NCBI GenBank assembly: GCA_938008185.1
Contig: CALLLR010000181.1
Span: forward strand, 1 to 45,149
Direction of reading: 5' to 3'
From: an uncultured Saprospiraceae bacterium
GTDB lineage: Bacteria > Bacteroidota > Bacteroidia > Chitinophagales > Saprospiraceae
Length of the DNA stretch: 45,149 nt
Positions 13,846 to 40,175 of this stretch are shown here, one piece after another; position 1 is the stretch's first letter; each line of letters starts with the position of its first letter. Under the pieces are notes generated by a model. The model did no database searches and had not been told where the DNA came from. It was given only the letters and a program-made list of their open reading frames with translations. The position numbers were made by a program, and so were the translations under genes.

Positions 13846-13860
13846 TTCCCAAAATGAGAA
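13846..13860. promoter_or_regulatory. Candidate activator site O1 (TTCCCAAAATGAGAA), copy 1
   Basis: The 17-mer ATTCCCAAAATGAGAAT (13845-13861) is identical to 31650-31666; near-palindrome TTC-N9-GAA. Confidence 0.6.
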
Positions 13861-13863
13861 TCG

Positions 13864-13878
13864 TTCCCGTTTTAGGAA
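13864..13878. promoter_or_regulatory. Candidate activator site O2 (TTCCCGTTTTAGGAA), copy 1
   Basis: TTC-N9-GAA, 18 bp downstream of O1. Confidence 0.5.
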
Positions 13879-13931
13879 AACATTATTTAATACAATAAGT
13901 CTAATTTACTGATAATCAATTTTTTATATCA

Positions 13932-13946
13932 TGGTATTCTTTTGGA
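13932..13946 (+). promoter_or_regulatory. Candidate sigma-54 promoter TGGTATTCTTTTGGA
   Basis: GG-N10-GA; GG 87 bp from O1 start; about 40 bp upstream of the 13986 ATG. Confidence 0.45.
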
Positions 13947-16900: not shown

Positions 16901-19900
16901 AGATTTCACAAAATATCACCAGGCGAATGTCATTCCTTCTTCTACCCTTCCCGCCCAGGATGGAATCACCGCTTCGGTTTCCTGGGATTTAAACATAAAA
17001 AACACAAAAGCACAGGCTACGAATACCTGGTTTTACCTGAATGATGAAAGTGGAAATATTACCGTTCAGGAAGTAAAAAATAATCAAACGCAAGAGGTTT
17101 TAGTCCCGGTGAATGGCTTTTATCAGCTAGGCAACTTAGCGCAAGGAGCAATACAGAATTTTCAAATTTTAGCTACCTATAATTCCTGTGATTTATCCAC
17201 CCTGCAGGTAACATCCGGGTCCGGCTGTGAAGGTTATCCAGTAGCATTGGCGGATTTTTCTTGCCAAACTAAAACGCTGGATCTGACACTGGCTCCGCAA
17301 CATTCTGAATTACAGGTCAGACTTGCTAATACGGTAAATCCACTGGACGAATGTAATAACCGCATCACCGTGGAGATTGAAATGCTAAGTTCAAAGTTGG
17401 CCACCGTAGATAATCTGTTCATCGATATTATTCCTCCAACAAGCCAAACGGTGACAATTGAAACTGGAAGCACAGAGGTCTTATATCCTTCTTCCCAAAA
17501 CTACTTCCCGATCACTGATCCCATATTACAAAATGACCGTTATACCATCAACGGTTCAGATCTGGACCCAATGATAGGTGATCACGGCTTAATCGGAGTA
17601 ACCGATTTGACAGCAAACAAAGTCCGCGTAAAATTCAATTTATTATTAGCAACTAATTATCGACCAGGTGAAATTATTTACTTCGAAATAGGCGGCCAAA
17701 GACCTTGTGGTAATCCTCTGCCTACGATCACTTCCGCTTTTGATCCCAATGCCAGTTTCGGCAAACCTGAACATATTGGGTTGGAAGCCATCTCCGATGC
17801 CTGGGCCACTGCCTGGGGCGATTATGATAATGATGGAAATGTGGACTTATTCGTAACCAATTATTCGCCGGATACACCAAATTTATTATACCACAACAAT
17901 GGAAACGCTACTTTTACGCAAGTAACCACCGGGCCAATTGCTACCGATTTGGCTAGTTCACTGGCAGCTACCTGGGGCGATTATGACAATGATGGCGATC
18001 TGGACCTTTACGTTGGTAATAATATTGGTGATGAAAATTTTCTTTACCGAAATAACGGAGGAACTTTCAGCCGGATCATGAGTGATCCAGCCGTCACAGA
18101 TAAAGGCTACGCGCACGGAGTAAGTTGGGTCGATTACGACAATGACGGATACCTGGATTTATTTGTTACTGATTATTTTTCTACTCGCTTTAACCATCTA
18201 TACCATAATAATGGAGATGGAACTTTTGAAGAATCCACCGGCTCTGCCCCTACCCTGGAAGCTGATTTTTCCGTCAGTAGTAGTTGGGGCGATTATAATT
18301 CAGATGGATTGGTAGATTTGTTTGTTTGTAACACTCAGGGAAATGACAATAGCCTTTATAAAAATCTGGGGAATGGAAATTTCTTGAAAATAAATACGGG
18401 AGATATCGTAAATGATGAGGCCAATTCCGTAGGAGCCAGTTGGGGTGATTATGATAATGATGGTGATCTCGATCTTTTTGTAGCCAACGCCGGAAATCAA
18501 AATAATCTTTTATACCAAAATAATGGAGACGAAACTTTCCTCAAAATAAATACAGGAGCCATTGTAAATGATGGGGGCCATTCCCACGGAAGTGCCTGGG
18601 GCGATTACGACAATGACGGTGACCTGGACTTGTTCGTTGCCAATGATCAAAACCAAAACAATTTTCTTTATTCCAACGATGGGAACGGCAATTTTATAGC
18701 GATTACCAATGACCTTACCCAGGATTCCGGACAATCGTTTGGAGCAGCCTGGGCAGATTATGACAACGATGGAGATATTGACTTATTCGTGGCAAATCAC
18801 CAGTTAAACAAAAATTTCATTTATCAAAATTCAAGAGGAAGATGTCAAAATAAAGCATGCGTTACCCTGGTAGGAACCAATTCTAATCGTTCTGCAATCG
18901 GTACCAAAATTCGCGTAAAGGCAAATATCTACGGAGAGAATGTTTGGCAAATGCGCGAATTATCCGGCCAGACCGGAGGCGGTATTGGTGGACAAAATGA
19001 ACTCAAAACAATTATTGGTTTGGGAGACGCTACGTTGATTGACTCGATGATTATAGAATGGAATTCTGGCTACCGACAAGTTTTAACCAATAAAATACCA
19101 GATGATTGTTTTGTTATTACCGAAAATCAGGGAAGTGAAATTTGTGGCGTAGCTTATTATGATGAAAACAAAAATTGTACGCAGGATTCCGGGGAAAGAG
19201 GAATTCCCAATATGAGAATCGTCCTCCAACCAGGTAACCTGACCGCCGTCACAGATTCCAATGGAAGCTATCGTATTTTGGCCGCTCCGGGTGACTACAC
19301 CATTACACAAAACACCAATCAAACCCAGTGGAATCCATCTTGTACCGAAGCATTCAATCTGACCGTAGTAGGTATTGGTAATAAGTTTTGTGGAAACAAT
19401 TTTGCGGATACCGCAGCTTGTCCTCTACCCGATCTTCAGATAGATATTTCAACTACTGCCCACCGGGTAGGATTTGAAAATCTGATTGCGCTGACCTACC
19501 AAAATTTAGGTACCAAAAAATCTACCAATACAGAATTAAAAGTAAAATTTGGGGATTTTATTACACCCGTTGAAAGCTCTGTTCCATGGACCAGGGTCGA
19601 AGGAGAAAACACTATTTGGGAATTAGGTAACCTGGAATCTGGCGAATCTGTAACCATCTATGTAACTGATTCCGTTTCCACCAATGCCGTTATTGGAGAT
19701 AACCTGCTCCTCGAAGCCACCATTGAGGCGACCGAACAAGACTGTGATATTACGAACAATACTATCCTGGATAACCAACCAGCCGTAGGGGCAATTGATC
19801 CAAATGATATTGCAGTGAGCCCGGAAGGATTCATCGAAAATGATCAGGAATTGATTTATAAAATTAGATTCCAAAACGTTGGAAATACCACCGTCTCTAC

Positions 19901-20474
19901 CGTCAGAATTGAAGACCAACTTCCGGAAGGCCTGGATATAAACACACTGAAAACTGGTTTAACCAGTCATAATTATCAATTCGAAATTCAGGACCAAAAT
20001 CGTTTGGTTTGGACCTTCGAAAACATCAACATGCCGGATAGTCTCACCAATGAAGCCGCCAGTCACGGATTTGTTTTCTTTAAAATCAACCCGATAAAAG
20101 ATTTAACGGACGGAGAAACACTTAAAAACAAGGCATCTATTTTCTTTGATAACGTGGCCCCGATTGAAACGAATACCGTCGTAAACATCATTGGTAAGGC
20201 ACCGGTGCTTACCTACTCTTCCGAACAATTGCAAATATTTCCAAATCCAATGTCCGAGCAGTCGAATATTCGAATTGTTCCATACGAGGGGGAAAACATA
20301 AATATCGTTAGCCTTAGTGTTTTTGATTTATTGGGCAAAAAATTATTTGAAAAATCAGAAATTCATACGACTACCTTCCAATTGAAAAAAGAAGATTTCC
20401 CAACGGGGCACTTCCTCCTCAGAGCCTTAGGTGAAAACGGCCAATGGTATTCCGGCAAAATTCTCATTCGGTAG
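13986..20474 (+). CDS. Giant (2162 aa) secreted surface protein: DUF11-like repeats, FG-GAP/VCBS repeats, ASPIC/UnbV domain, SdrD B-like domain, T9SS type A sorting domain
   Basis: Seven WGDYDNDGDLDLFVAN-type repeats; GTKIRVKA...ELSGQTGGGIGGQNELKTIIGLG...IEWNSGYRQ; GVAYYDENKNCTQDSGERGIPNMRIVL; C-terminal LQIFPNPMSEQSNI. Confidence 0.9.
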   Translation: MNTTHQTSEELKEIIESEEQNIPSWFVFLLGCLIIFLSCIEVEAQSISFNNGVPGQLMVCENGENFTVEFTNTSNAVLNNLDIQILFPDGIEYETGSLTDHSGANVLENNISDLSAVSFSADNLNSGNNIHFSFIATASYDAYTGQLNGTIFSNQVVVNYTGGSETDVTDAYNIFYPALSITQVNPMASTVFVGGSFDQVVTVVNGGYGSLSSFVLKNTYDENLSLDAINLGTLNNDRTEIIFSAADFVNIGNGDGRFDQNESLVITQTMTANGCNNSQNCLTAYWGCDSQTNSSNQKFPFTTVSLFPPNLSIIPSASFASCVDGSADVQQLAITNNGTGPANETQIEILPHSNNQYTRTAEESIRYSLNGNIASLVPIATQPATGYGCLGSNPIDGFTVGLPTIQPGETLFLNWDNYTCTTTSCARVQYVGWQYNGQYTDMCDSRTYDFSGVGQDNNIKNLSTFFESPSDLVDGQTGTYTLNINAATFNLPVGTAPYFEAVFDIPTGLLWSGHAEDLEFVNSQYSWPADQLNYDAATKKLSARYDLPIPENFNLNHSQFNLDLTADCVPNTNWVTVGMQLFHIMDTDCTAPYRIAMTCRETPETQLHCPGTCEQGMVFNGFDIYRTSTGQSDNDLDGLPDATNNLNMSLIKSKRIMTSDTFKTTFIGEVKTSANFPDWSYGYAQSNIPFGDEIDILSARIEILDKNTGQTISCDNVPFSESLTGGIRTVNFDFSPATLAGSGCGIFADFQLENEDEVNLIATYKMTGNIGGNAEQKMITNDFYLSNTPNGSAYQCNDWNGNFTAVGYFYTTWKSEQYNVTTCTETIYQNYYMSIGDCCTNYSGGNMFPYEYRNWSHLETFRVEIPAGYAFVNGAVKQWRTKNTNSTVLETTSITPDTIVGTTHIFNMDGYYIKNGGELNYSDDGYNGQITLEIKPECTVNQAANLPIDYYFSFRENNVLGGNFTAEYTGQTDFTKYHQANVIPSSTLPAQDGITASVSWDLNIKNTKAQATNTWFYLNDESGNITVQEVKNNQTQEVLVPVNGFYQLGNLAQGAIQNFQILATYNSCDLSTLQVTSGSGCEGYPVALADFSCQTKTLDLTLAPQHSELQVRLANTVNPLDECNNRITVEIEMLSSKLATVDNLFIDIIPPTSQTVTIETGSTEVLYPSSQNYFPITDPILQNDRYTINGSDLDPMIGDHGLIGVTDLTANKVRVKFNLLLATNYRPGEIIYFEIGGQRPCGNPLPTITSAFDPNASFGKPEHIGLEAISDAWATAWGDYDNDGNVDLFVTNYSPDTPNLLYHNNGNATFTQVTTGPIATDLASSLAATWGDYDNDGDLDLYVGNNIGDENFLYRNNGGTFSRIMSDPAVTDKGYAHGVSWVDYDNDGYLDLFVTDYFSTRFNHLYHNNGDGTFEESTGSAPTLEADFSVSSSWGDYNSDGLVDLFVCNTQGNDNSLYKNLGNGNFLKINTGDIVNDEANSVGASWGDYDNDGDLDLFVANAGNQNNLLYQNNGDETFLKINTGAIVNDGGHSHGSAWGDYDNDGDLDLFVANDQNQNNFLYSNDGNGNFIAITNDLTQDSGQSFGAAWADYDNDGDIDLFVANHQLNKNFIYQNSRGRCQNKACVTLVGTNSNRSAIGTKIRVKANIYGENVWQMRELSGQTGGGIGGQNELKTIIGLGDATLIDSMIIEWNSGYRQVLTNKIPDDCFVITENQGSEICGVAYYDENKNCTQDSGERGIPNMRIVLQPGNLTAVTDSNGSYRILAAPGDYTITQNTNQTQWNPSCTEAFNLTVVGIGNKFCGNNFADTAACPLPDLQIDISTTAHRVGFENLIALTYQNLGTKKSTNTELKVKFGDFITPVESSVPWTRVEGENTIWELGNLESGESVTIYVTDSVSTNAVIGDNLLLEATIEATEQDCDITNNTILDNQPAVGAIDPNDIAVSPEGFIENDQELIYKIRFQNVGNTTVSTVRIEDQLPEGLDINTLKTGLTSHNYQFEIQDQNRLVWTFENINMPDSLTNEAASHGFVFFKINPIKDLTDGETLKNKASIFFDNVAPIETNTVVNIIGKAPVLTYSSEQLQIFPNPMSEQSNIRIVPYEGENINIVSLSVFDLLGKKLFEKSEIHTTTFQLKKEDFPTGHFLLRALGENGQWYSGKILIR
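17811..18798 (+). repeat. Seven tandem degenerate FG-GAP/VCBS coding repeats
   Basis: Recurring (A/S/T)WGDYDNDGxxDLFVxN encoded by tgggGcgattatgacaatgatgg variants. Confidence 0.9.
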
Positions 20475-20663: not shown

Positions 20664-20678
20664 TTCTAAAAATGAGAA
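20664..20678. promoter_or_regulatory. Candidate activator site O1 (TTCTAAAAATGAGAA), copy 2
   Basis: 13/15 identical to the 13846 site; GTTTCT/AGAAAC palindromic arms. Confidence 0.6.
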
Positions 20679-20681
20679 ACC

Positions 20682-20696
20682 GTATCAAATTGACAA
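20682..20696. promoter_or_regulatory. Candidate activator site O2 (GTATCAAATTGACAA), copy 2
   Basis: 10/15 match to TTCCCAAAATGAGAA, 18 bp downstream of O1. Confidence 0.35.
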
Positions 20697-20749
20697 TGAA
20701 TAAATTAAAAAACAAATCATAACTAACTGATTTACTGCACTTTAATGAT

Positions 20750-20764
20750 TGGCCATACCTTTGA
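20750..20764 (+). promoter_or_regulatory. Candidate sigma-54 promoter TGGCCATACCTTTGA (overlaps a TACCTTTG sigma-A-type -7 match)
   Basis: GG-N10-GA; GG 87 bp from O1 start, same spacing as copy 1. Confidence 0.45.
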
Positions 20765-20801: not shown

Positions 20802-21968
20802 ATGAATCACACTAAAAGAAAACTAGCCATAATAGGCACCGTTGGGGTGCCTGCCCGCTACGGAGGATTTGAAACCCTGGCGCACCAATTGGTCAAAAAT
20901 TTAAATAAAAAATATCAACTCACCGTATATAATAGTACCAAACATTACAGTTCGAAGGAAAGAATTCCTTCCTGGAATGGAGCAAAGATTAAATATATTC
21001 CATTATCCGCCAATGGTATTCTTAGTATTCCTTACGATATCATTTCCATGATCCACGCAGTATTATTTTGTGAGGTCCTGCTGATTTTAGGCGTATCGGG
21101 TTGTCTGTTTTTACCCATCATAAAATTATTTTTTCCTTTTAGAAAAATCATCGTAAATGTTGACGGACTGGAATGGAGACGCGCCAAATGGTCCAAACCT
21201 GCCAGGTTCTTTTTGTTAGGTAGCGAAAAAATAGCGATCAGGTTTGCGGATGAAATCATTGCGGATAACGCGGCTATTCAAAAATATGTTTTCGACCGAT
21301 ACGGTAAGGTCTGCCGTTTAATCGAATACGGAGCCGACCATAATCAGTCCAGGGCTTTCCAACCAGCAACGCTGAAAAAATTTCCTTTTTTAAAAAATAA
21401 ATATGCTTTTAAAGTCGCCCGAATTGAACCAGAAAATAATGTCCATCTGATTTTAAAAGCATTTGCAAAACAAAATAAACTACCCATTGTGGTGGTAGGA
21501 AACTGGAAAAACAGCGCATACGGTCACTCTTTACTAAATGAATTTAAGACGTTCCCCCACCTGCATTTACTGGATCCAATTTATGAACCTCATTTACTGA
21601 ATCAAATCCGTTCCAATGCAATATTTTATGTACACGGACACAGCGAAGGAGGTACCAACCCTTCACTGGTCGAAGCCATGTATTTAGGTTTACCGATTCT
21701 TTCATTTGATATTATTTACAATAGAATTACTACCGAGAACGAAGCGGTTTATTTTGGAACTGAAAAAACACTGGATATTTTATTAGAAAACCTGGATCAA
21801 CTCAACCCAACACAGATGGCCAGTCGATTGGCAGCGGTGGCCAATCGCAGATATTTATGGTCGGTAATCGCTGACAAGTACAGCCTACTCGTCAGTGGAA
21901 GCTCCCGTGTTGAAGAACCATCTTTTGATTTTGAATTACCCGTAAAGTTACAAAGAGCTATTGCTTAA
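20802..21968 (+). CDS. DUF1972/glycosyltransferase family protein (rhamnosyltransferase-like)
   Basis: N-terminal KLAIIGTVGVPARYGGFETLAHQLV typical of DUF1972 glycosyltransferases; C-terminal GT-B motif HGHSEGGTNPSLVEAMYLGLPI. Confidence 0.85.
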   Translation: MNHTKRKLAIIGTVGVPARYGGFETLAHQLVKNLNKKYQLTVYNSTKHYSSKERIPSWNGAKIKYIPLSANGILSIPYDIISMIHAVLFCEVLLILGVSGCLFLPIIKLFFPFRKIIVNVDGLEWRRAKWSKPARFFLLGSEKIAIRFADEIIADNAAIQKYVFDRYGKVCRLIEYGADHNQSRAFQPATLKKFPFLKNKYAFKVARIEPENNVHLILKAFAKQNKLPIVVVGNWKNSAYGHSLLNEFKTFPHLHLLDPIYEPHLLNQIRSNAIFYVHGHSEGGTNPSLVEAMYLGLPILSFDIIYNRITTENEAVYFGTEKTLDILLENLDQLNPTQMASRLAAVANRRYLWSVIADKYSLLVSGSSRVEEPSFDFELPVKLQRAIA

Positions 21969-27312: not shown

Positions 27313-30171
27313 TTATATCATTGCAAACCGGTTAAGCTCATTTTCCAGTAATGAATAAGCCATTCCTGAATCAAATTTTAGGATACCAATTTGTAGACTT
27401 ATTTCCTCCTCCAGGTAGCTGTTCATTTTAATGGATTTTTCAATTTCAAGGGCCAGCTTATTTTGTTCCATTAGACCTACCATCATATAATTTGTTTTGA
27501 TACGGTGGGCAATACTCGCGATATTATCCCAATTTTTACTTTCTAGTTCTTCATCCATCCGACTCAATGCCACCGGTATTTCCTGCAAGAAAAGTTCGAT
27601 CATCTCCCGAATAAAAGTTTCGTCGCCGCCGGACATTTCAGTTAGGTAATTAAAGTTGAATTCAATCACTTTATTTTTTGAAAATTCGGAACAGGATTCT
27701 GAAGAAATATTATCTAGTTTGATATTCAGCCATTTACCCAGCTGCATCTTCAGTTGTTTGGGAGAAAATGGCTTGGTTAAAAAATCGTTCATACCAGCGG
27801 CTAAGGCCCGATTCTTTTCGTCTAACAGGGCCGCTGCGGTCAAGGCGATGATGACTGAATTCTGATTTATATTATCAGTATTTACCCGGATAGCAGTGGT
27901 AGTTTCACAACCATCCATTTCGGGCATATGAATATCCATTAGGATAATATCATATTTTTTCTCCATTGTTTTTTGGACTGCTACTATTCCGTTAGAAGCG
28001 ATATCAAACTGACAATCCCAAAGTTCAAGAATTTTAATAATTAATTTTTGGTTCATCGGATTATCTTCGACAACCAACAAACTGATATCTTTTAAGGCTT
28101 CGGAAATTTGGTATTCTGCATCTTTTTCGGTGGATATTTCTGTCTGTAAAATACCTGAGTCCAAAAATGGAAGCACAATATTAAAAATGGATCCTTTATT
28201 TTCGGTACTTTCTACTTCGATGGTACCACCCTGTAATTCTACCAGATTTTTTACGATGGTTAATCCAAGACCAGTTCCGCCAAATTTGCGGGTAATCTTG
28301 ACATCCGCCTGTTTAAAATTTTCAAATATCTTGTCAAGATGCTCCTTTTTAATCCCGATCCCAGTATCGTGCACCTGAAATTGGATGAGATATTTTCCTT
28401 CGGTAGCCGCAACCAGTTTTGTTCTTACGCCGATCGTTCCTGAATTGGTAAATTTACTGGAGTTACCCAGTAGATTTGTCAGAATTTGAATTAGTCGAAC
28501 GGAGTCTCCAATTAAATAATTTTTGATGCTGGGATCCGAATCCAAATCTACATTAATGGGTTTGCCGCGCACCTTAAACTGAAAGGTTTGCTGCATAGAA
28601 GTCAGGACTTCCTGCAAATTGAATGTCCGCTGTTCAAACTCCAACTCGTTGGCCTCAATTTTTGAGAGGTCCAATATATTGGAAATAATCCCCATTAAAC
28701 TATCCGCAGAAAAGCGCAATGAATCTAAATATTCCCGCTGCACATCAGAAGGATCGGTATCGTACAGCAGATGCGTCATACCAATTACGGCGTTCATTGG
28801 CGTTCGTATTTCATGACTCATATTAGCTAAAAATTGTTGCTCTGCTAATTGAGCCTGCTCCGCTTCCTGCTTAGCAGAAATCAAATCCTGTTCCGCTCTT
28901 TTACGCTCCGTAATATCCCGAACAAATCCACTAAAAAAGTGTTTTCCACCCATTTGAATAGGCGAAATACTTAATTCTATCGGAAATTCTCTGCCACTTT
29001 TATCCAACGCAACAATCTCAATTCGGTTATTGATCACTGCTCCACCACCCGTTTTTAAAAAACGTTTCATACCCTGTTCGTGCGCCGTTCGGTATTCCAT
29101 TGGCACGATAAAATCACCCATTTTTCTACCCAGAATTTCTTCAGCTGTAAAACCAAAAATTTTAGTAGCTTGGTTACTCCAGGCGATTACCTTGCCCTCT
29201 TCATCAATATTGATTACAGCATCAAGCGAAGCATCAATAATTTTACGTAACATAAGTTCACTTTCCCGTACTTTGGTCTCTGCCAATTGTTGGTCCGTGA
29301 CATCCGTAACAGTTCTCATTGTACCAATCACCTCACCCAGAGGATTTAAATAAGGTGAAGCATTCAGTCGTCCAATCCAAGGAGTACCAGACTTATGAAG
29401 ATAAGTGACCAGCAAATTCTTTAGTCTGCCTTTCTTCTTTTTGTAAATATTTCGTTCAATATTTTCCTTGTCTTCTTCTTTAAGGAATAAATTAGCGGCC
29501 GTTCTATCCAATAGTTCCTTATTGGAAAAACCGGTTAACTTTTCCATTCTTTTATTAGCGAACGTTATTCGCCCTTTTAAATCCGTTAAAATTATTCCTT
29601 CCGAAAGGTGTTGCACGACAAACCGGTGTCGCTCCTGACTCATTTTTAACGCCTGCTGCACAAACAGTCTTTGCTCTTGTTCAATTCTTATATTTTCGTG
29701 TGCGATACATCCCTTAAGTAGTAAGCCAAATTTTTCAATTACACTAAATAATTGATTGGCTTCAGTTGACTCAGTACCCGTAGGTTGAGATTTATATAAT
29801 TTTAGAAACCCAATATCGGCCAATTTAAAAATACTATAAATACCTTTTTCAATTTTTTCATCCTCCCGAATCTGTTTAAAATCAGGATGATCAAACGGAA
29901 TGATAAACTTATTTTCACCTGCCAGTTTGTTCCAGATAAAATGATTCAATTTAGTAGATCTACTAGCTACGATATCGGTTGGAGTCTCATAGATCAATTC
30001 CATATTACGATCCTCAAACAACCATACACTCGCATAACTCAGTTTTTTTCTGGTCATCAGAACATTTAAAAATTGCTGACAATTTTGGCGTAAGTTCAAA
30101 GAATTTCCAATTGAGAGAGACAACTCATACAACAATACAATATCTTTAACTGTAGAAACGTTAACTTTCAT
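27313..30171 (-). CDS. Cytoplasmic hybrid sensor histidine kinase: GAF-like, two PAS, HisKA, HATPase, receiver, Hpt
   Basis: FLANMSHEIRTPMNAVIGMT; GTGLGLTIVKNLVELQGG; VVEDNPMNQKLI...ILMDIHMPEMDG; Hpt AHRIKTNYMMVG; no transmembrane segment seen. Confidence 0.92.
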   Translation of the reverse strand: MKVNVSTVKDIVLLYELSLSIGNSLNLRQNCQQFLNVLMTRKKLSYASVWLFEDRNMELIYETPTDIVASRSTKLNHFIWNKLAGENKFIIPFDHPDFKQIREDEKIEKGIYSIFKLADIGFLKLYKSQPTGTESTEANQLFSVIEKFGLLLKGCIAHENIRIEQEQRLFVQQALKMSQERHRFVVQHLSEGIILTDLKGRITFANKRMEKLTGFSNKELLDRTAANLFLKEEDKENIERNIYKKKKGRLKNLLVTYLHKSGTPWIGRLNASPYLNPLGEVIGTMRTVTDVTDQQLAETKVRESELMLRKIIDASLDAVINIDEEGKVIAWSNQATKIFGFTAEEILGRKMGDFIVPMEYRTAHEQGMKRFLKTGGGAVINNRIEIVALDKSGREFPIELSISPIQMGGKHFFSGFVRDITERKRAEQDLISAKQEAEQAQLAEQQFLANMSHEIRTPMNAVIGMTHLLYDTDPSDVQREYLDSLRFSADSLMGIISNILDLSKIEANELEFEQRTFNLQEVLTSMQQTFQFKVRGKPINVDLDSDPSIKNYLIGDSVRLIQILTNLLGNSSKFTNSGTIGVRTKLVAATEGKYLIQFQVHDTGIGIKKEHLDKIFENFKQADVKITRKFGGTGLGLTIVKNLVELQGGTIEVESTENKGSIFNIVLPFLDSGILQTEISTEKDAEYQISEALKDISLLVVEDNPMNQKLIIKILELWDCQFDIASNGIVAVQKTMEKKYDIILMDIHMPEMDGCETTTAIRVNTDNINQNSVIIALTAAALLDEKNRALAAGMNDFLTKPFSPKQLKMQLGKWLNIKLDNISSESCSEFSKNKVIEFNFNYLTEMSGGDETFIREMIELFLQEIPVALSRMDEELESKNWDNIASIAHRIKTNYMMVGLMEQNKLALEIEKSIKMNSYLEEEISLQIGILKFDSGMAYSLLENELNRFAMI

Positions 30172-30209: not shown

Positions 30210-31577
30210 TTAAGCTAATGTAGTGGTTTTTTCATTTTTCAACATCCGATAGATCGTTGACTTTCCGATATCCAGTTTTTGGGCGGTCTTATCAATATCG
30301 CTTTCGTATTTTTCTAAAAAATGGGTAATAATCAATTTTTTATATTGATCCATTGTCATCTCTTTAGTAAAAAATTGGGCTTCCTTTCGAGGGCTGTTAA
30401 ACCGAATATCCATTTCTGTAATTTGATCTTCATTAGTCAGTACTGCCGCCAAATCAATAATAGCTTTTAGCTCCCTGACGTTACCCGGAAAAGTATAATT
30501 CAATAATTTGCTTTTAGCTTCTTTAGAAATTTTTAGCGAGCCAAGATTATTATTTTTACAAAAATCCACTAGAAAAAAATCAGCTAATAACAGAATATCA
30601 TTCCCTCTATCCCGCAGCGGCGGCAAGGCAATAGGCAACCCCAATAATCGATAAAATAAATCTTCACGAAAATTTCCATCGCTGACCTCATCCTGCAAAT
30701 TTCTGTGTGTAGCGACAATGATTCTCGCGTCAAACGCAACGGTTTTTTCGGCGCCTACCCGCTGTATTTCACGCTCCTGTAAAACCCGTAAAACCTTTGC
30801 TTGCAGATTAATATCCATCTCTCCAATCTCATCCAGAAAAAGCGTTCCCTTATTGGCCAGTTCGAACATTCCTCGCTTTTGGGTATTTGCACCGGTAAAT
30901 GCCCCTTTTTCGTAACCAAACAACTCACTCTCTAACAATTCTTTTGGAATAGCACTCATATTAACCGCTACAAACGGTTGCTTTTTCCTAGAAGAATTGT
31001 AATGAATACTTTTAGCAATCACCTCTTTTCCCGTTCCAGTTTCACCGGTAATAGAAATCGTAATGTCTGTTTTAATAGCTTTTTCCAACAATGAAAATAC
31101 TTGTTGCATCGGTTTACTATTGCCAATAATACTTTTATCTACCTTATAATTTATTTCTAATTCCTGTCGTAGATTGTTGACTTCTTCCTTTAATAAATTT
31201 TCCTGTTTTATTCGATTGACGGCGTGCAGCAATCGATCATTGGTCTCACTATCTTTGGTGATATAATCGCAGGCTCCTTCTCTTAGCAATTTAATTGCAG
31301 TAGCAACATTCTGCTGGCTGGATAAAATTATTACCGAAATATCTTTATTGTAATTTTTTATTTTTTGCAGGACTTCTGATCCAGTCATATCCGGCAGAGA
31401 ATAATCCAAAGAAACAATCGAAGGATTAAGGTGCAGATTTTGTAAACACTCCTCTCCATTAGAAAAAAGATGAACCTCATGGTCCGGATTTAGTTCCATC
31501 ACATATTTCACCAAACGCTGATACATCGGATCATCTTCCACCACAAAAATACAGGTTGATAAAAATTTAGTTTTCAT
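30210..31577 (-). CDS. Sigma-54-dependent response regulator/enhancer-binding protein (REC-AAA+-Fis HTH)
   Basis: REC FVVEDDPMYQRLV; ITGETGTGKEVIAKSIH; ESELFGYEKGAFTGA; GTLFLDEIGEM; C-terminal HTH DKTAQKLDIGKSTIYRMLK. Confidence 0.95.
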   Translation of the reverse strand: MKTKFLSTCIFVVEDDPMYQRLVKYVMELNPDHEVHLFSNGEECLQNLHLNPSIVSLDYSLPDMTGSEVLQKIKNYNKDISVIILSSQQNVATAIKLLREGACDYITKDSETNDRLLHAVNRIKQENLLKEEVNNLRQELEINYKVDKSIIGNSKPMQQVFSLLEKAIKTDITISITGETGTGKEVIAKSIHYNSSRKKQPFVAVNMSAIPKELLESELFGYEKGAFTGANTQKRGMFELANKGTLFLDEIGEMDINLQAKVLRVLQEREIQRVGAEKTVAFDARIIVATHRNLQDEVSDGNFREDLFYRLLGLPIALPPLRDRGNDILLLADFFLVDFCKNNNLGSLKISKEAKSKLLNYTFPGNVRELKAIIDLAAVLTNEDQITEMDIRFNSPRKEAQFFTKEMTMDQYKKLIITHFLEKYESDIDKTAQKLDIGKSTIYRMLKNEKTTTLA

Positions 31578-31650
31578 ACAGCAACTGGATTTTGAAAATT
31601 AAAAAATCGAACTGACAAGTAATATAAAAGAGTCTAATTGTATGCCAAAA

Positions 31651-31665
31651 TTCCCAAAATGAGAA
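31651..31665. promoter_or_regulatory. Candidate activator site O1 (TTCCCAAAATGAGAA), copy 3
   Basis: Identical to the 13846 site. Confidence 0.6.
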
Positions 31666-31669
31666 TACC

Positions 31670-31684
31670 GTCTACTTTTTAGAA
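31670..31684. promoter_or_regulatory. Candidate activator site O2 (GTCTACTTTTTAGAA), copy 3
   Basis: 19 bp downstream of O1; resembles TTCCCGTTTTAGGAA. Confidence 0.35.
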
Positions 31685-31748
31685 CACATATAATTATTCA
31701 TAAATATTTATTGTCATAACAATCAACCGATTAACTATTTTTAAAAAA

Positions 31749-31764
31749 TGGCATTTTTACTGCC
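31749..31764 (+). promoter_or_regulatory. Candidate sigma-54 promoter TGGCATTTTTACTGCC
   Basis: TGGCA...TGC with exact GG-N10-GC spacing; upstream of EPS operon and beside the divergent sigma-54 activator. Confidence 0.6.
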
Positions 31765-31865
31765 TTTCAATAACTGCCGACAATAAATAAAATTTAGTAA
31801 CCTACAATCGTAAGTATGTTTATCCTATTTTCGGAGACTGCTTAAGGGTAGATTAAAAAATAGCC

Positions 31866-32609
31866 ATGTTAAGATTATGTTCTTTTCTTATTCTTATCTG
31901 CGGATTATCATCCTGTCAGACTTCAAATCCTATTTTTAGTAAGGTCATTGATCCGGCCTTAAATGATTCACTTGCCTTCAAATTTATGACCGCAGTGGAA
32001 CCCGTATTGAAGACGGGTGACAAAATCACCATGAGTATCTGGAACCACAACGACCTGAGCATTGGATCTGTCAACAGTGTTTACACGTCGAATGCTTCTA
32101 CTGGAAAATGGTTACAACTGGATGACGAGGGAAAAGTAAACCTTCCCAAAATCGGACGAACAAAAATATCTGGCCTTACGGTTAAAGAGTCCAATTATTT
32201 TTTGGAACAGGCTTATGCCGGTATTTTAAAAGATCCAATCATTAATATTCGGGTACTTAATCATTTTGTTACAGTGCTTGGTGAAGTTAATCACCCGGGC
32301 CGATATAGTTTAGACAACGAAACAATATCCCTGGTGGAAATACTGGGAGAAGCCAAAGGACTGACCAGCTATTCAAAAAATGAATCTATTGAATTAATTA
32401 GAATAGTAGACGGGCAATCCGTCAAATGGAATCTTGACCTTACCGATCTAGCCGCAATTCCCAGCAAAAATATTCTATTACAGCCCGATGATATCGTTCA
32501 TGTAGGAGCCACGAAAGCTAAAATTAATGACAAAAACTTAGGGAAAGCAAGTTTAATAACCAGTATCGTAACGGGACTTGCCCTCATCTTCTCCATATTC
32601 GTACAGTAA
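31866..32609 (+). CDS. Polysaccharide export outer membrane lipoprotein (Wza-like, poly-export plus SLBB)
   Basis: Lipobox LSSC; LKTGDKITMSIWNHNDLSIG; VTVLGEVNHPGRYSL; LLQPDDIVHVG; C-terminal TM. Confidence 0.9.
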   Translation: MLRLCSFLILICGLSSCQTSNPIFSKVIDPALNDSLAFKFMTAVEPVLKTGDKITMSIWNHNDLSIGSVNSVYTSNASTGKWLQLDDEGKVNLPKIGRTKISGLTVKESNYFLEQAYAGILKDPIINIRVLNHFVTVLGEVNHPGRYSLDNETISLVEILGEAKGLTSYSKNESIELIRIVDGQSVKWNLDLTDLAAIPSKNILLQPDDIVHVGATKAKINDKNLGKASLITSIVTGLALIFSIFVQ

Positions 32610-32674: not shown

Positions 32675-34972
32675 ATGAAAAAAGAATATCAAACCCTGAT
32701 CGTTCCCATCCTTAAAGGTCTTCCGATCATTTTGGCATTGTTGGTGGGTGCCATTATGCTGGCTTCCAGGCTGATCGTCTATACGGTACCTGAATATCAG
32801 TCTACGGGTTCTATTAAAATTGACAACCGAAATATTAACCTTGGAGATCTGGCCCTATTCGAAGAAGAGGGTCGAACCAAAGGCGCCACTTCCGTTGATT
32901 TTTTAACAGAAGTAGAAATATTTAAATCTAAAAAATTAAAAGAACTGACCTTAAAAAAACTGGATTTTGAATTAGAAATTTTCCGAGTGGGAAAAATGAA
33001 AATCACCGAATTGTTCAAAAATAGTCCGCTTAACATCGAATATAAAATATCAACCGAGGAGGCCTACGATCAAACGTATTATTTAAAATATACCGGAGCA
33101 AATGATTTTTTGTGGAGTAAGTCTAAGGACCTGTTTAAGGTAGAAAATCAACTAAGTTTGGGTGATACGGCAAAGATGAAGGGTTTTGATTTAATGATTA
33201 AAAAAAACGAGAACATTCTTTCCGAGCATCCATTCAGTCTGCGCGAAAATGATATTTTTGCTTTTAAAATCAACTCTCTGAGAGCACAAGTAAATGCCAT
33301 AAATACCAGTAATTATTTTGTTCGCTCCGTCGATAAAAAAATACAAATCATAAAACTTTATTATCAGCACAAAGTCTCCGAAAAAGCAGAAATTTTTATT
33401 AATACTTTGATGGAAACCTATATTGAGAATTGCAGAGATGAACACCAACAGGAGGCCGATAAAACCCTCGCTTTTATTGATGAGCAACTTGATTTGGTCA
33501 AGCAAAAGCTACGAAATTCTGAAGGCCGCCTCGTTAAATACAAAATGCAAGAAAGCATCATAAACATAAAGCAAGAAACCGATGCGACGCTTAAAGAAAT
33601 GATGCAATTAGAATTTCAGAAGGTAAACTATGACATGCAAAAAGGAGAATTAAAAAGAACTTTCGAACACCTCGCTAATGGAAATGACTTAAGAGATTTT
33701 GCACCCAATTTTGAGGCCTTAAAAGACCCCTTATTTAAGGAAGCTTTTTTAAAAGCACAAATCCTCGAAATGGCCAAACAAGATTTACTGATGAAGTATA
33801 CCCCACAGAGTGATGAAGTTCAAAATATTGAAATAAAAATAAACAATCTGCGTACATTTATTCACGAAAGTGTAAAAAATACGCTGGATAACATAACGGC
33901 TCGTCAGCAAGAAATGGCGGGGGCGATTGCTAGTATCGGAGATAATATTCAGGAGTTTCCGGATAAAGAACAACAGACTATGATTCTTCAGCGATCTGTA
34001 AAACTGAACGAGCAACTCTACACTTCTCTGATCGAAAAGCGAATGGAAATTGCCGTAGCTAAATCGGCAAATACTGTTTTCCACCAAATTGTAGATTCAG
34101 CCGAGGCCAGTAAAAATCCCGTCACACCCAACACCACCCTTTTATATGGCGTAGCCGTTTTCTTTGCGCTGCTTATTGGGATTGGGATTTCTTATTTGAA
34201 ACATTTCCTGACCGCGAAAATAAAGAATAAACATGAGTTAACCCAACTGTTAAACTTTCCACTGATTGGCAGCATTGCACAGGCTAGAAAAAAAGAAAAC
34301 CCCGTTAACAATCTGGGCAACCTCTACACTAATCTAGAATTGATGAAAGGAGAAACAGGTGTTGAAAAAAAAGTAGTAACCATACTTATTTCTTCCATGC
34401 TCACCGGAGAAGGAAAAACTTTTACCACTACCAACCTGGCAAAAATCTATGCTTCTATGGGAAAAAAGGTACTGGTTATCGATATGGACCTGACGGATAA
34501 TCATCCGGAATCTCTTTTTGGCGTAAACAATGAGATTGGCCTGGCGGACCTACTACAAAAAACCATTACCCCTTATCAGGCTATCCTAAAAACAGGCATA
34601 AAAAACGTGGACATAATTCCCAAAGGAGACTTATCAAATATCTACTCAGGAATTTTATTTACCCCGCAAACCAATAAATTTATTGATAAATTTAAGACCG
34701 AATATGACCTCATTCTAATTGATGCTCCCGCCGTCGGAATGGTGGAAGATGTTACCCTAATGATGAAACAGGTTGATTTTAATCTCGTCATTTTCAAAGC
34801 GAAAAAAACAAAACTGAAAACGGTTCATTTTGCCAAGGCTATTTTTGAAGAACATAAAACACCCAATATCTACGGTGTTTTTAATGGTGCAAAAACCAAT
34901 CGACACCAAGAATTTTTCAATACCATATCTGTCAAACAACGAATTTGGGAAACGGTACTTTCCATTTTTTAA
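32675..34972 (+). CDS. Wzc-like polysaccharide co-polymerase/BY-kinase-type ATPase
   Basis: Two TM segments flanking coiled coil; Walker-A SSMLTGEGKTFTTTNLA, VLVIDMDLTDNHP, LILIDAPAVG. Confidence 0.9.
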   Translation: MKKEYQTLIVPILKGLPIILALLVGAIMLASRLIVYTVPEYQSTGSIKIDNRNINLGDLALFEEEGRTKGATSVDFLTEVEIFKSKKLKELTLKKLDFELEIFRVGKMKITELFKNSPLNIEYKISTEEAYDQTYYLKYTGANDFLWSKSKDLFKVENQLSLGDTAKMKGFDLMIKKNENILSEHPFSLRENDIFAFKINSLRAQVNAINTSNYFVRSVDKKIQIIKLYYQHKVSEKAEIFINTLMETYIENCRDEHQQEADKTLAFIDEQLDLVKQKLRNSEGRLVKYKMQESIINIKQETDATLKEMMQLEFQKVNYDMQKGELKRTFEHLANGNDLRDFAPNFEALKDPLFKEAFLKAQILEMAKQDLLMKYTPQSDEVQNIEIKINNLRTFIHESVKNTLDNITARQQEMAGAIASIGDNIQEFPDKEQQTMILQRSVKLNEQLYTSLIEKRMEIAVAKSANTVFHQIVDSAEASKNPVTPNTTLLYGVAVFFALLIGIGISYLKHFLTAKIKNKHELTQLLNFPLIGSIAQARKKENPVNNLGNLYTNLELMKGETGVEKKVVTILISSMLTGEGKTFTTTNLAKIYASMGKKVLVIDMDLTDNHPESLFGVNNEIGLADLLQKTITPYQAILKTGIKNVDIIPKGDLSNIYSGILFTPQTNKFIDKFKTEYDLILIDAPAVGMVEDVTLMMKQVDFNLVIFKAKKTKLKTVHFAKAIFEEHKTPNIYGVFNGAKTNRHQEFFNTISVKQRIWETVLSIF

Positions 34973-35040: not shown

Positions 35041-36303
35041 ATGAGGTTCTTAAATAAAATAACCAACGCTCCTAATTTTTCCAGAGGTATGGTGTTTCTG
35101 GATCAGGCAATGGTAAGTGGCAGTAATTTTTTGATTGGGATTCTCCTGGTTCGGTCCATCGGATTATCAGCATACGGTATTTTCACCTTATTGTGGATGG
35201 GCGTATTATTTGCGATGGGACTCCATCAGGCGTTTATTATCAAACCCATTTTATCCATCGCTCCGAAATTAGGAGGCGATGACCAAGTGGATTATCTAGC
35301 GGGCACACACAGTATTCAATACCTCACCAGTGGATTTTTTTTGATCCTTGGATTGTGTATCTACGGTGGTGTACAAATATTTTCCGATAGCGAATTCCCC
35401 ATTTATATTCCATTAATTAGTATGGTTATATTTTGTCAAACCATCCACGACTTTTACCGAAAACTTTACTTAATTAAAGATCATATTACCAGGGTTTTTA
35501 TGCTGGATTCTATATTATACGGAGGACAGTTAGCGGGGGTTTTCATATTTCTTATTTTAGGAAAATTAACGACAATCACTACGTTGCAAATTATTTTAAG
35601 TGCAAATATTCTTAGCGTTTTAGTTGGTAAATACAAACAGGAATTTTCATTAAAAAATTATAAAAAAATATTAATCAGACATTTTCACTTTTCCAAATGG
35701 TTGTTGGGTACTTCAATTTTACAATGGCTTTCAGGAAACTATTTTATTATTGTTGGCGCAAGTATTTTAGGTACCTCAGCCGTGGGCGCAATCCGAATGG
35801 TTCAAAATCTGATGGGCTTATGCCATATCTTGTTTTTGGTCATGGAAAGCATTATTCCCATCGAAGCAGCTCGACAATTTCAGGCGGAAGGTGGAAATGG
35901 TCTGATCCGATATTTAGGTAAAATTACCAAAAAACTGGGTTTGGGGTTTGGGGTTTTATTAGTAGTCATTGCCTTCTTTGCCAGTCCTCTGTTATCCCTG
36001 ATTTATGGTTCGGCAGCGGCGGACTATAGTTATGTTGCAGTGGCTTATGCCCTACTCTATTGGTTTGTTTTTTTAGGACACCCTTTTCGATTTTATCTAC
36101 GCACGATTGAAAATACCAGTCCTATTTTTTTTGCGTACTGTCTGGGCGCTTTATTTAGTCTTGGCTTCGCTTATATTTTATTAAATCATATGGGAATCTA
36201 CGGTCTGCTGTTTGGATTGATTTTCACGCAAATTATCAACGTAGGAACCTATTATTTTTTCTCACTGCGATCCAGTAAGATTACATTACAAGAAATAAAA
36301 TAG
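35041..36303 (+). CDS. Polysaccharide flippase (Wzx/MATE-like, multi-TM)
   Basis: About 12 hydrophobic helices, gene context. Confidence 0.8.
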   Translation: MRFLNKITNAPNFSRGMVFLDQAMVSGSNFLIGILLVRSIGLSAYGIFTLLWMGVLFAMGLHQAFIIKPILSIAPKLGGDDQVDYLAGTHSIQYLTSGFFLILGLCIYGGVQIFSDSEFPIYIPLISMVIFCQTIHDFYRKLYLIKDHITRVFMLDSILYGGQLAGVFIFLILGKLTTITTLQIILSANILSVLVGKYKQEFSLKNYKKILIRHFHFSKWLLGTSILQWLSGNYFIIVGASILGTSAVGAIRMVQNLMGLCHILFLVMESIIPIEAARQFQAEGGNGLIRYLGKITKKLGLGFGVLLVVIAFFASPLLSLIYGSAAADYSYVAVAYALLYWFVFLGHPFRFYLRTIENTSPIFFAYCLGALFSLGFAYILLNHMGIYGLLFGLIFTQIINVGTYYFFSLRSSKITLQEIK

Positions 36304-36308
36304 ATTTC

Positions 36309-37424
36309 ATGAAAATTATCCATATCGTACTTGGCAAAGCCAATCCGGAAAGAATGAATGGTGTCAATAAAGTTGCCTATCAATTGGCCACTGCTCAGAC
36401 CAATTTAGGCCACGAAGTCACCTTGTGGGGAATTGCCAATTCGTTAACCAAAAATTATCCTCCCAGAAATTTTAAGACCCAATTATTTAATCAGATAAAA
36501 AATAAACTGGCGCTGGACGTTAAATTAAAAGGTGCCGTCCGTAGTTTGAGTCAAGAGGCCATTGTTCATCTGCACGGAGCCTTTATTTCCGAGTTTTATC
36601 ATATCGCAAAAATGCTCAACAAAAAAAACATATCTTATGTTTACACCCCCCACGGTTCACTAACAGAAATGGCAATGACAAAAAACAGTACCGCAAAAAA
36701 AGCGTATTTTAACTTGTTCGAATCCAAGGTTATTAAAAATGCCAAGCAAGTGCAATTATTAGGCATCAATGAGTACACGTTCCTTGACACTCTGACCAAT
36801 AAAGCGCGTAAATGCCTGATTGCAAACGGTCAGGATCTCAATGAAATACCGGATTATCCAGAAAGAAAGTCGGCAGCACTAAATCCTGTTTTTGGATTTT
36901 GTGGTCGCCTGGCCCAATTTCACAAAGGCCTGGATTTAATGTTTTTAGGTTTTCAGAAATATCTGAAAAATGGAGGAACGGGTAGTTTGGAATTGATTGG
37001 AGACGGTTCAGACAAAGAAAAATTGATTCAATTGACCACCAATCTGGGGATTAGGAATCATGTCATTTTTCATGGTAAAAAATTTGGTAAAGAAAAGTAT
37101 GACCTACTCCATAAAATGGACGTTTTTTTGCATACTTCCAGAATGGAGGGATTTCCTACGGCAGTCCTTGAGGCAGCAGCCTTAAAAATTCCAACGATTA
37201 CGAGTGAAGCAACCAACATGAATGAATATATCAAAAAATATCGAAGTGGTTTTTTACTCAACGAAAATACACCGGAGGCCATTGGCCTGCAGATGAGGCT
37301 GGCAGCTGATTATTTCCATCAGGGTAAATTGAAGCAAATGGGAGATAACGGAAGAAAGATGGTGACTCAGCATTTCAACTGGCAGCTGATTGCTGCCCAG
37401 TTAGTACAAATTTACGCAGCATGA
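36309..37424 (+). CDS. Glycosyltransferase family 4-like
   Basis: GRLAQFHKGLDLMFLGF...LIGDGSDKEKL...FLHTSRMEGFPTAVLEAAALKIPTI. Confidence 0.9.
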   Translation: MKIIHIVLGKANPERMNGVNKVAYQLATAQTNLGHEVTLWGIANSLTKNYPPRNFKTQLFNQIKNKLALDVKLKGAVRSLSQEAIVHLHGAFISEFYHIAKMLNKKNISYVYTPHGSLTEMAMTKNSTAKKAYFNLFESKVIKNAKQVQLLGINEYTFLDTLTNKARKCLIANGQDLNEIPDYPERKSAALNPVFGFCGRLAQFHKGLDLMFLGFQKYLKNGGTGSLELIGDGSDKEKLIQLTTNLGIRNHVIFHGKKFGKEKYDLLHKMDVFLHTSRMEGFPTAVLEAAALKIPTITSEATNMNEYIKKYRSGFLLNENTPEAIGLQMRLAADYFHQGKLKQMGDNGRKMVTQHFNWQLIAAQLVQIYAA

Positions 37425-38677
37425 CTCCATCCGTAAAACCTAAAAAATATACCTGGCTGCTGATTGGGCTGACCATCATCATGGCCTTGCGAATTACCAG
37501 TTATTTTACCATTTTCCCCAGTTCCATCGGACTTACGAGAGTTGTAAAAGTGGGCATGCGATTTTTCCTGACCGGGTTTAGTATCCTCGTACTTTTGGTA
37601 ATGATCAAAAGGGTTAAAAAGTTTTCTTTTGCTTACGAAAACCATTTAAGCGGATTATTTTATTTAGGGTATGCACTTTTAGGAATCGCTTCCATTATTT
37701 GGTCGACGGATGTGATGTTTACTGTTTTGCAATTGATGATGCTCATTGAAAGCATTTTTTTTGTTATCGCTTTTTATCACTTGCTGGTACTCGGAGCATT
37801 TCTTACGCACGGCCGGGCCTCTTTTGCCAGAATTTTAGCCATCAGTATTTCCATCATTTCGGTTTGCTTCCTCATTGGATTGTACTTTGATCCATCTACT
37901 TTTTATCGGGATACGCACGGGGGAGCCGTTTCCAGGTTGGGTGGTTTTATTATCAATCCCAACGAATTGGGAATGCTGGCGGTAATCGGAGCCTCGATGA
38001 CCTATATCAGGATGAAAGAAGGCGCCAGTTTATTTTGGAATATTTTATTCTGGATAATTTGTATCACTGTCTTATTATTGACCCAATCAAGGTCCTCGCT
38101 CGGTGCATTTTTATTGGTAACGGGAATGTTTATTTTGCTGTCCAAAAGTGCATGGTTAAAACTAGGATCCGTTGGAATTGCCGTTTTGGTTTTGCCCATT
38201 TTGGTCCAGACGATTATCATTAAGGATGGAGACGTCGGGGAGGTGATGAGTATGACGGGACGGTTGCCATTCTGGTCTGATTTGATTACGTACGGATTCC
38301 CGGAAAGACCAATTCTAGGCTATGGATTTATGAGTATTAGCGATTCACCTTTTACCAACAAGTTTGACAGTATTCATGCCTACGCTGCTTCTATGACCCA
38401 CAATACATTTGTACAGGTACTCATAAATTTAGGGCTGGTAGGAGCTTTTATTTGTTTGATTCAAATGCTCTTAACATTTTTTGCGATCGGAAAAAGTAAA
38501 GATTTAAAACTAAAACTAACGGCCATTGCCATGCTAATTCCACTGTTGATCAATTCGGCGACAGAATTCGGAATTTTCGGGGAGGCCAATTATGGTATTT
38601 ATTTTTATCACCTCGTCATCCTGATGTTTATTGTCCAAAGTAGTTCTTCATCTTTAAAATCTATTACTCATGCCTAA
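37421..38677 (+). CDS. O-antigen ligase/Wzy-like polymerase
   Basis: Multi-TM; LTQSRSSLGAFLL and ILGYGFMSI...SMTHNTFVQVLINLGLVGAFICL motifs; ATGA overlap with upstream gene. Confidence 0.88.
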   Translation: MTPSVKPKKYTWLLIGLTIIMALRITSYFTIFPSSIGLTRVVKVGMRFFLTGFSILVLLVMIKRVKKFSFAYENHLSGLFYLGYALLGIASIIWSTDVMFTVLQLMMLIESIFFVIAFYHLLVLGAFLTHGRASFARILAISISIISVCFLIGLYFDPSTFYRDTHGGAVSRLGGFIINPNELGMLAVIGASMTYIRMKEGASLFWNILFWIICITVLLLTQSRSSLGAFLLVTGMFILLSKSAWLKLGSVGIAVLVLPILVQTIIIKDGDVGEVMSMTGRLPFWSDLITYGFPERPILGYGFMSISDSPFTNKFDSIHAYAASMTHNTFVQVLINLGLVGAFICLIQMLLTFFAIGKSKDLKLKLTAIAMLIPLLINSATEFGIFGEANYGIYFYHLVILMFIVQSSSSSLKSITHA

Positions 38678-40127
38678 CCACCAGGTATCCATTTCGGATA
38701 TTATTCTGATCAATAAAGTTATTTTTCCAACCTCAAAGCTGGTTGTTATCTACCTCGCAAACCGAACGTTGGATATTGATTTATCCAATGCGAGTAAAGT
38801 TTTGGTGATCAAAAATAAAATAGGGTTAAAGCAATTTACGGCCACCAATAAAATACTTTTTTCGCTCGTCAATTTTTCGGATATCAGCCTTTTGGATTTA
38901 AAAAATCAATCTTTATTTTTGGGTCTACTTGATTTTTCAAATACTACAACCGCTGGTTATCAAACCTATTCGTACCTTAATAATCCGGATGGTTCCATTC
39001 GTTGGTTTTTCCCAAAAGCCAATAAAAAAGCATGCTTTTTAGCATTGTATAATGGTTCTGGGTGGAAAGCCAGATTATTTGTGACGACCAGTAAATTATT
39101 AAATAAAATTGGCCGTTTGTCGATCCTTACCGATGGTCATTTCATGGTTTATTATCATCAGCATGATGGTTTTAAAACCAGTTTCCCAGAAGTTCCGTTT
39201 GATGACTTTGCCGTCTTTACTGGTACCATTGGGGAAAACCGAAAAGCCATTATTGCGCTATCAAGTGGTGGCAAAACGACTCAATTTTTAAAAATCCCGC
39301 TAACCGATGCGGCGATTAAATTGGTAAAAAACGAATTCTGTCAGCTTTTACACCTGGAATCTTTTGTGTATCATTCGACCGTACTTCCCGAAGTAAAAAA
39401 TCATAATCACCAAATTATGGTCAGCAATATTTCTCCTGAACGGAAAAGCGAAGATCAGCGGTGGTCCACCGTTCACTGGCAATCTCTGTCCGAATTATAC
39501 CGGAATACCTACCAATGCAAACCACTGATCAATACTCCGTTTTGGAAAACCATAGAAGCAGGAATAGCATTTTTTGGTAATCCTTTATTAATTAAAAATG
39601 GTTTATCAGAAGAGAAAATTACGTCCCTAAAAAATTACACAATTTCATTATTCAACCGTATTGATCCGACCAATATATCTGCTTTGGGAATGGGGCACGG
39701 CGACTTCACGCCTTGGAATATGTACGTTGGACAAGGTCGATTACACATTTATGATTGGGAAATGAGTCAACCGGACTATCCCTTGTTGTTCGATTTTTTC
39801 CATTATTATTTCCAAAAAGGAATTTTAATAAACAGGGAGAATTTTACCGACATACAAAAAAAACTGCAAAAACAATTTCAGCAAAAAGAGGCTAAACAAA
39901 TTTTAGCAACTTATCGTCTTGATAAACAAACCTATTATCGGCTTTATTTGCTTTATATTGTTTGTTATTATCTGCCTAAATATTTGGTGCAACCGAAACT
40001 TCACACACAGGTACACTGGCTGGTTTCAACGTGGCTGGAAGCCCTGGAAAATATTTATAATTCTTCTAATAATGAGAATCCTATCCCAAAATTAGACACG
40101 CCCCTTCCAGTGTCCACATCTAATTAA
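38670..40127 (+). CDS. Phosphotransferase (APH/choline-kinase-like fold) protein in EPS locus
   Basis: Catalytic-loop-like ALGMGHGDFTPWNMYV...LHIYDWEMSQPDYPLLFDFFHY; N-terminal region unassigned. Confidence 0.65.
   Translation: MPNHQVSISDIILINKVIFPTSKLVVIYLANRTLDIDLSNASKVLVIKNKIGLKQFTATNKILFSLVNFSDISLLDLKNQSLFLGLLDFSNTTTAGYQTYSYLNNPDGSIRWFFPKANKKACFLALYNGSGWKARLFVTTSKLLNKIGRLSILTDGHFMVYYHQHDGFKTSFPEVPFDDFAVFTGTIGENRKAIIALSSGGKTTQFLKIPLTDAAIKLVKNEFCQLLHLESFVYHSTVLPEVKNHNHQIMVSNISPERKSEDQRWSTVHWQSLSELYRNTYQCKPLINTPFWKTIEAGIAFFGNPLLIKNGLSEEKITSLKNYTISLFNRIDPTNISALGMGHGDFTPWNMYVGQGRLHIYDWEMSQPDYPLLFDFFHYYFQKGILINRENFTDIQKKLQKQFQQKEAKQILATYRLDKQTYYRLYLLYIVCYYLPKYLVQPKLHTQVHWLVSTWLEALENIYNSSNNENPIPKLDTPLPVSTSN
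40064..40078. promoter_or_regulatory. Candidate activator site O1 (TTCTAATAATGAGAA), copy 4
   Basis: 14/15 identical to the 20664 site; lies in 3' end of the 38670-40127 CDS. Confidence 0.5.
40083..40097. promoter_or_regulatory. Candidate activator site O2 (ATCCCAAAATTAGAC), copy 4
   Basis: 12/15 match to TTCCCAAAATGAGAA, 19 bp downstream of O1. Confidence 0.5.
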
Positions 40128-40160
40128 CTGGTAATCAGATAATTACAGTCCCACCAAATA

Positions 40161-40175
40161 AGGCACTACTTTCGT
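40161..40175 (+). promoter_or_regulatory. Candidate sigma-54-like promoter AGGCACTACTTTCGT
   Basis: GGCAC, GG-N10-GT; GG 98 bp from O1 start; alternative sigma-A -7 reading TACTTTCG. Confidence 0.35.

Follow-up and report, generated by a model that had tools for sequence, protein, structure and literature searches.

A very probable sigma-54 promoter with tandem operators at the exopolysaccharide export operon of an uncultured Saprospiraceae bacterium

Saprospiraceae are common in activated (wastewater) sludge. In the NtrC/NifA-type architecture of bacterial promoters, tandem activator sites lie upstream and a bend site is placed between the enhancer and the -24/-12 elements. In Proteobacteria, the PrsK/PrsR-sigma-54 system acts on PEP-CTERM/EPS genes (PMC1569441) and has been linked to floc formation (PMC9850573). 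Sigma-54 has also been viewed as a controller of the bacterial exterior with which EPS genes are associated, in a paper whose available text makes no mention of Bacteroidetes, the phylum of the present locus (PMC3162934). For Flavobacterium psychrophilum, the available part of one study describes a sigma-54 regulon (SM4 motif) with promoters before the sprB gliding adhesin operon, groES/groEL and dnaK, and reports validation of the sprB promoter by reporter mutagenesis, which supports sigma-54 control of surface functions in Bacteroidota (PMC9723704). In the literature searched, we found nothing on the regulator described below in Saprospiraceae and no description of a genetic switch for the Saprospiraceae matrix.

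The window, that is, the whole stretch of DNA analysed, comprises 45,149 nucleotides of an uncultured Saprospiraceae bacterium. Its features around the flagged promoter are as follows.

27313-30171, minus strand: hybrid histidine kinase (PAS-PAS-HisKA-HATPase-REC-Hpt), encoded on the same strand downstream of the regulator and probably its partner
30210-31577, minus strand: sigma-54-dependent response regulator (REC, AAA+ with GAFTGA, Fis-type HTH), likely activator
31631-31648, minus strand: candidate divergent sigma-54 promoter TTGGCATACAATTAGACT toward the regulator gene, its -24 element abutting O1
31651-31665, no strand assigned: operator O1, a TTCCCAAAATGAGAA dyad
31670-31684, no strand assigned: operator O2, GTCTACTTTTTAGAA (TTCTAYTTTTTAGAA in congeners), 19 bp from O1
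31721-31733, plus strand: IHF-like site AATCAACCGATTA, matching WATCAANNNNTTR at 9/9 informative positions and followed 29 bp later by the -24 GG
31749-31764, plus strand: predicted sigma-54 core promoter TGGCATTTTTACTGCC of the wza-like operon, from direct reading, congeners and family-wide position
31775-31865, plus strand: predicted wza 5' leader, its first 30 nt strongly kept in congeners, with no significant fold in the window
31866-32609, plus strand: wza-like Poly_export/SLBB outer-membrane lipoprotein, first gene of the putatively controlled operon
32675-34972, plus strand: wzc-like GNVR/AAA_31 chain-length protein
35041-40127, plus strand: remaining EPS operon (unknown, GT4, Wzy_C-like, unknown), from domain matches and synteny in congeners

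In TGGCATTTTTACTGCC, the -24 GG at 31750-31751 is followed after N10 by the -12 GC at 31762-31763, within TGGCA and TGC elements. Sequence, coordinates and GG-N10-GC spacing are exactly as the first-pass annotation had given them, as is the distance of 92 bp from the O1 centre (31658) to the GG. Transcription predicted to start ~12 nt after 31763 would leave a leader of ~91 nt before the wza-like ATG at 31866, in agreement with the roughly 90 nt proposed earlier. As a bare motif the promoter is not significant in the window, where TGGCN8TGC occurs three times against 2.98 expected, which is chance level, and where 26 places exceed a score of 6 on a lineage-calibrated matrix that gives TGGCATTTTTACTGCC 5.8. 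The case therefore rests on comparison. Judged in this way, the flagged site is very likely to be a genuine sigma-54 promoter, through which the two-component activator encoded next to it turns on the polysaccharide-export operon.

The earlier placement of the promoter between a divergent sigma-54 activator and a wza-like gene is borne out by the domains of both neighbours. The regulator combines a receiver, a Sigma54_activat and an AAA lid domain, its GAFTGA loop is intact, and it has the make-up of an NtrC-type enhancer-binding response regulator (REC, Sigma54_activat with GAFTGA and Fis-type HTH), its Fis-type HTH being read by eye from IGKSTIYRMLK where Pfam reported no HTH match. An AlphaFold model from the single regulator sequence was unusable (mean pLDDT 38). 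The kinase is probably the partner of the regulator, a pairing drawn from adjacency only. In the EPS operon, 35041-36303 and 38670-40127 encode conserved proteins with no match in Pfam or NCBIfam. The source genome, a 64%-complete MAG in which rpoN was not found, encodes an HU/IHF-family protein; rpoN was present in 59 of the 61 genomes searched, including 6/6 congeners.

The leader has features of its own. The block TGCCRACARTAATTAAATAT-TAGTAACC at 31775-31805 (~+1 to +30) is strongly kept in congeners and partly retained further out, in the orthologous leaders of loci L016-L019, L082, L083 and L085, and 31807-31855 carries a ~30-nt insertion in the window relative to congeners. A hairpin ACACC-GAAA-GGTGT in the congener leaders was rejected, since it did not differ significantly from shuffled sequences and the window does not retain it.

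A scan with a dyad matrix built from EPS loci, in which tandem pairs were defined as dyads 17-23 bp apart, returned exactly four tandem operator pairs in the window (13846/13864, 20664/20682, 31651/31670 and 40064/40083), each preceding a matrix-related operon. All four have counterparts at orthologous places in congeners, and the four-promoter regulon suggested by the first-pass annotation gains support from both results. The three regions other than that of wza are as follows.

13846-13946, plus strand: second control region, with operators at 13846-13860 and 13864-13878, IHF-like site at 13914-13926, -24 GG at 13933 and -12 GA at 13945
20664-20764, plus strand: third control region, with operators at 20664-20678 and 20682-20696, -24 GG at 20751 and -12 GA at 20763
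40064-40175, plus strand: fourth control region, with operators at 40064-40078 and 40083-40097, IHF-like site at 40133-40145, -24 GG at 40162 and -12 GT at 40174

The second region lies upstream of the gene (13986-20474) for a 2162-aa T9SS protein with FG-GAP/UnbV/SdrD_B domains and a T9SS-type tail domain, and orthologous operators occur in congener G002. The third, upstream of a DUF1972 glycosyltransferase gene (20802-21968), is kept in congeners G002, G004 and G006 and showed no good IHF-like match at the offset used. The fourth precedes the operon starting at 40202, whose orthologue sits divergently beside the regulator in other Saprospiraceae. One more operator copy, nearly perfect (TTCCCAATATGAGAA at 19204-19218), was set aside as a coding coincidence because it lies within the giant T9SS ORF and no partner dyad passed the pair scan.

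The intergenic region also contains a minus-strand sigma-54-like site at 31648-31631, which had been missed by the earlier annotation. A supposed third dyad, TTCTAATTTTGTGCC, 19 bp upstream of O1, is better read as the reverse strand of this regulator-ward -24/-12 site. The site is kept in congeners, and we counted a TTGG/TGG-N10-G within 2-4 bp of the operator in 14/33 regulator-adjacent regions of the family. O1/O2 might thus mainly autoregulate the regulator gene, with control of wza secondary, the more so as TTGGCATACAATTAGACT outscores the wza site (8.9 against 5.8). We regard this as unlikely: relative to the wza promoter the operators sit at a usual enhancer distance but they directly adjoin the minus-strand -24, and the three other operator pairs stand before structural operons that are not next to the regulator gene. 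Because the minus-strand -24 touches O1, the bound regulator may limit its own transcription.

Counted from where the first dyad begins, GGYA in 40 operator-linked regions occurs at 87-92 or 98-102 bp and at none of 93-97 bp, and these two clusters, about one DNA helical turn apart, are found on the promoter side only. With a sigma-54 matrix built exclusively from 26 groES promoters of relatives and one best site taken per 200-bp region, the best site fell 86-103 bp downstream in 33/40 regions, compared with 3/40 in the reverse direction; the nominal binomial p of ~5e-24 is optimistic, since the loci are related and the 86-103 window was chosen after the distance clusters had been seen. A position 80-150 bp from upstream activator sites is conserved both in congeners and in the family regions. 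In 29/39 regions the highest-scoring WATCAANNNNTTR match precedes the GG by 19-20 or 29-30 bp, and the mean IHF-like score is 7.95 against 6.65 +/- 0.11 in shuffled spacers, which by sequence places an IHF consensus between enhancer and -24 at fixed phase. The distance shifts between orthologues as well as between operons: window operator 40064 stands at 98 bp and its counterparts at 87-90, and the wza operator of locus L109 at 88 bp and the others at 99-102. This 10-11 bp step is what a looped complex confined to a fixed face of the DNA would require.

The -12 element is less strict. Operator-linked promoters have GA in 14 cases, GC in 13, GT in five and other dinucleotides in seven, and a good -12 G is missing at several sites (AT in loci L132, L138 and L144). 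TTGGCAC-N7-TGA sigma-54 promoters precede groES in 28/30 relatives (L158-L187), with GA at -12 in 20/28, GC in seven and GT in one. On these counts, the G at -13 is kept in this lineage and the C at -12 is not required, so the other three promoters of the window are not weak on that account, and the main ground for ranking the wza promoter first is removed: it is the strongest core of the four, as had been claimed, only under the E. coli GC rule, whereas the -12 of the lineage reads G followed by A, C or T. The relaxed -12 may be visible already in class-specific sigma-54 logos, which have been published according to the available part of the source (PMC12316311). E378 of E. coli sigma-54 crosslinks to promoter DNA (PMC5505868), and Ile occupies this position in all 30 Bacteroidota RpoN proteins read. 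Ile cannot be the sole cause of the relaxed -12, because Bacteroidales-type groES promoters retain GC (TTGGTACGGTAGTTGC). In the Bacteroidota RpoN sequences (L045, L188-L190, L201-L230), R383 is retained, and the ARRTVAKYRE box, where shown, is intact.

These results bear on a second alternative, in which transcription of the wza operon starts at a sigma-A promoter of the housekeeping type (TTG / TAnnTTTG), the resemblance to -24/-12 is due to coincidence and a repressor uses the dyads as its operator. The chance frequency of the core motif in the window and the degeneracy of some -12 elements would fit such a reading, but TAnnTTTG, the Bacteroidota housekeeping -7 box, is absent from both strands of the intergenic region, the -24 GG is fixed family-wide at two dyad distances that differ by one helical turn, the regulator belongs to the class of AAA+ GAFTGA proteins that work with sigma-54, and the relaxed -12 is matched by groES promoters of the same order. 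We consider a sigma-A promoter very improbable here and retain the sigma-54 promoter.

Conservation ties the operators to the neighbouring regulator. Four congeners encode regulator orthologues 83-86% identical to that of the window together with the same divergent wza gene, and their orthologous promoter sites (TGGCACCTTTACTGC, TGGCACTTTTACTGC or TGGCATTTTTCCTGC) are found 100 bp away from the operator. Operator and GG are separated by 99-100 bp in the window and all four congeners, whereas the operator-to-regulator distance varies. In the alignment, O1, O2 (TTCTAYTTTTTAGAAC), AATCA-N6-TTAA, TGGCAYYTTTMCTGC and the early leader block are conserved and the DNA between them has diverged; the AATCA and TTAA columns of the IHF-like site are invariant. 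In G001 and G005, the congeners without a regulator orthologue, non-coding operators and the 40202 gene were not found, G001 being only 68% complete.

Further afield, a scan of genome contigs with the regulator alignment provided 80 loci, and the named relatives carrying the regulator are mostly Saprospiraceae MAGs. These loci contain 57 tandem operator pairs (5.3 in shuffles), most of them directly upstream of the regulator gene. Across the family, the DNA ahead of this regulator gene combines tandem TTCYCAWWWTGRGAA dyads with an IHF-like site of 13 bp and a -24 element. In 14/80 loci wza is the divergent gene; in ~17 others, orthologues of the 40202-hexapeptide-GT-GT operon are divergent from the regulator instead, several with a DUF1972 glycosyltransferase on the other side. 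The operator adjoins the regulator whether the divergent gene is wza or belongs to another EPS-locus operon, and is thus tied to the regulator. That the promoter is sigma-54 dependent but its dyads are bound by a regulator encoded elsewhere, the neighbouring one having another target, is also very improbable. The genome does encode further sigma-54 activators (four strong Sigma54_activat matches including 30210-31577), but throughout the family the operators go with the 30210-31577 gene, no matter which gene is divergent from it, and congeners without it lack them.

Together, the sites read from the sequence, with their spacing and conservation, and the genes around them back a model in which sigma-54 RNA polymerase would read 31749-31764 as the core promoter of the wza-wzc EPS export operon. 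The regulator would be phosphorylated, probably by the hybrid kinase as the signalling kinase, and would then bind the tandem dyads O1/O2 ~100 bp upstream. Occupancy of 31721-31733 by an IHF/HU-type protein would bend the DNA, so that the AAA+ ring could reach and open the closed complex. The same operator/bend/-24 module, with a bend site that is not clear at the DUF1972 glycosyltransferase promoter, would also serve three further operons of this matrix-building locus, which is conserved among Saprospiraceae: those of the T9SS giant protein, of the DUF1972 glycosyltransferase and of 40202. The four would form a single matrix regulon. We hold this whole reading, from the sigma-54 wza-wzc promoter and the divergent regulator on O1/O2 to the IHF-type bend and the four-operon matrix regulon, to be highly likely on the sequence evidence.

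Somewhat less firmly, we favour a broader proposal: that a regulator-kinase pair not described before, and common throughout Saprospiraceae, governs a dedicated matrix regulon of EPS export, glycosyltransferases and a T9SS-secreted giant protein via a stereotyped enhancer/IHF/-24 module whose -12 element no longer requires C. Sigma-54 promoters of this order are under-called by the classical GG-N10-GC rule, and if the need for C has indeed been lost in the lineage, standard searches by the GC rule miss many promoters. The analysis offers a named candidate activator together with its operator, a set of four target operons and a rule for recognising the promoters.

Compared with known systems, the regulatory logic is that already known from PrsK/PrsR-sigma-54. 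As there, an NtrC-type response regulator and a kinase are encoded near EPS genes, and an activator motif, a spacer and a -24/-12 sigma-54 motif, corresponding to motif 1 and the elements following it in that system, precede surface/matrix genes (PMC1569441). However, the regulator is not PrsR, scoring 369.1 bits against the TIGR02915 cut-off of 502.6, nor does the locus show the XrtA/PEP-CTERM-type kinase and export proteins of a PrsK/PrsR PEP-CTERM system: the top matches of the kinase are BarA/TorS-like, and wza and wzc fall far below the cut-offs of the XrtA-associated models. In contrast to PrsK/PrsR, the secreted targets here have T9SS-type C-terminal domains, a tandem TTCYCAWWWTGRGAA dyad accompanied by an IHF-like site serves as operator, and the phylum is Bacteroidota, for which the motif was not reported (PMC1569441). 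Tandem operators and a bend site before -24/-12 are shared with NtrC/NifA-type promoters, but here the IHF-like site and the enhancer shift together by one helical turn between operons, and the -12 C is not conserved. In the F. psychrophilum regulon, as far as the available part of the study extends, no binding site is given for an activator and the listed selection does not include EPS export (PMC9723704), whereas an adjacent regulator, an operator and an EPS operon are linked at the present locus.
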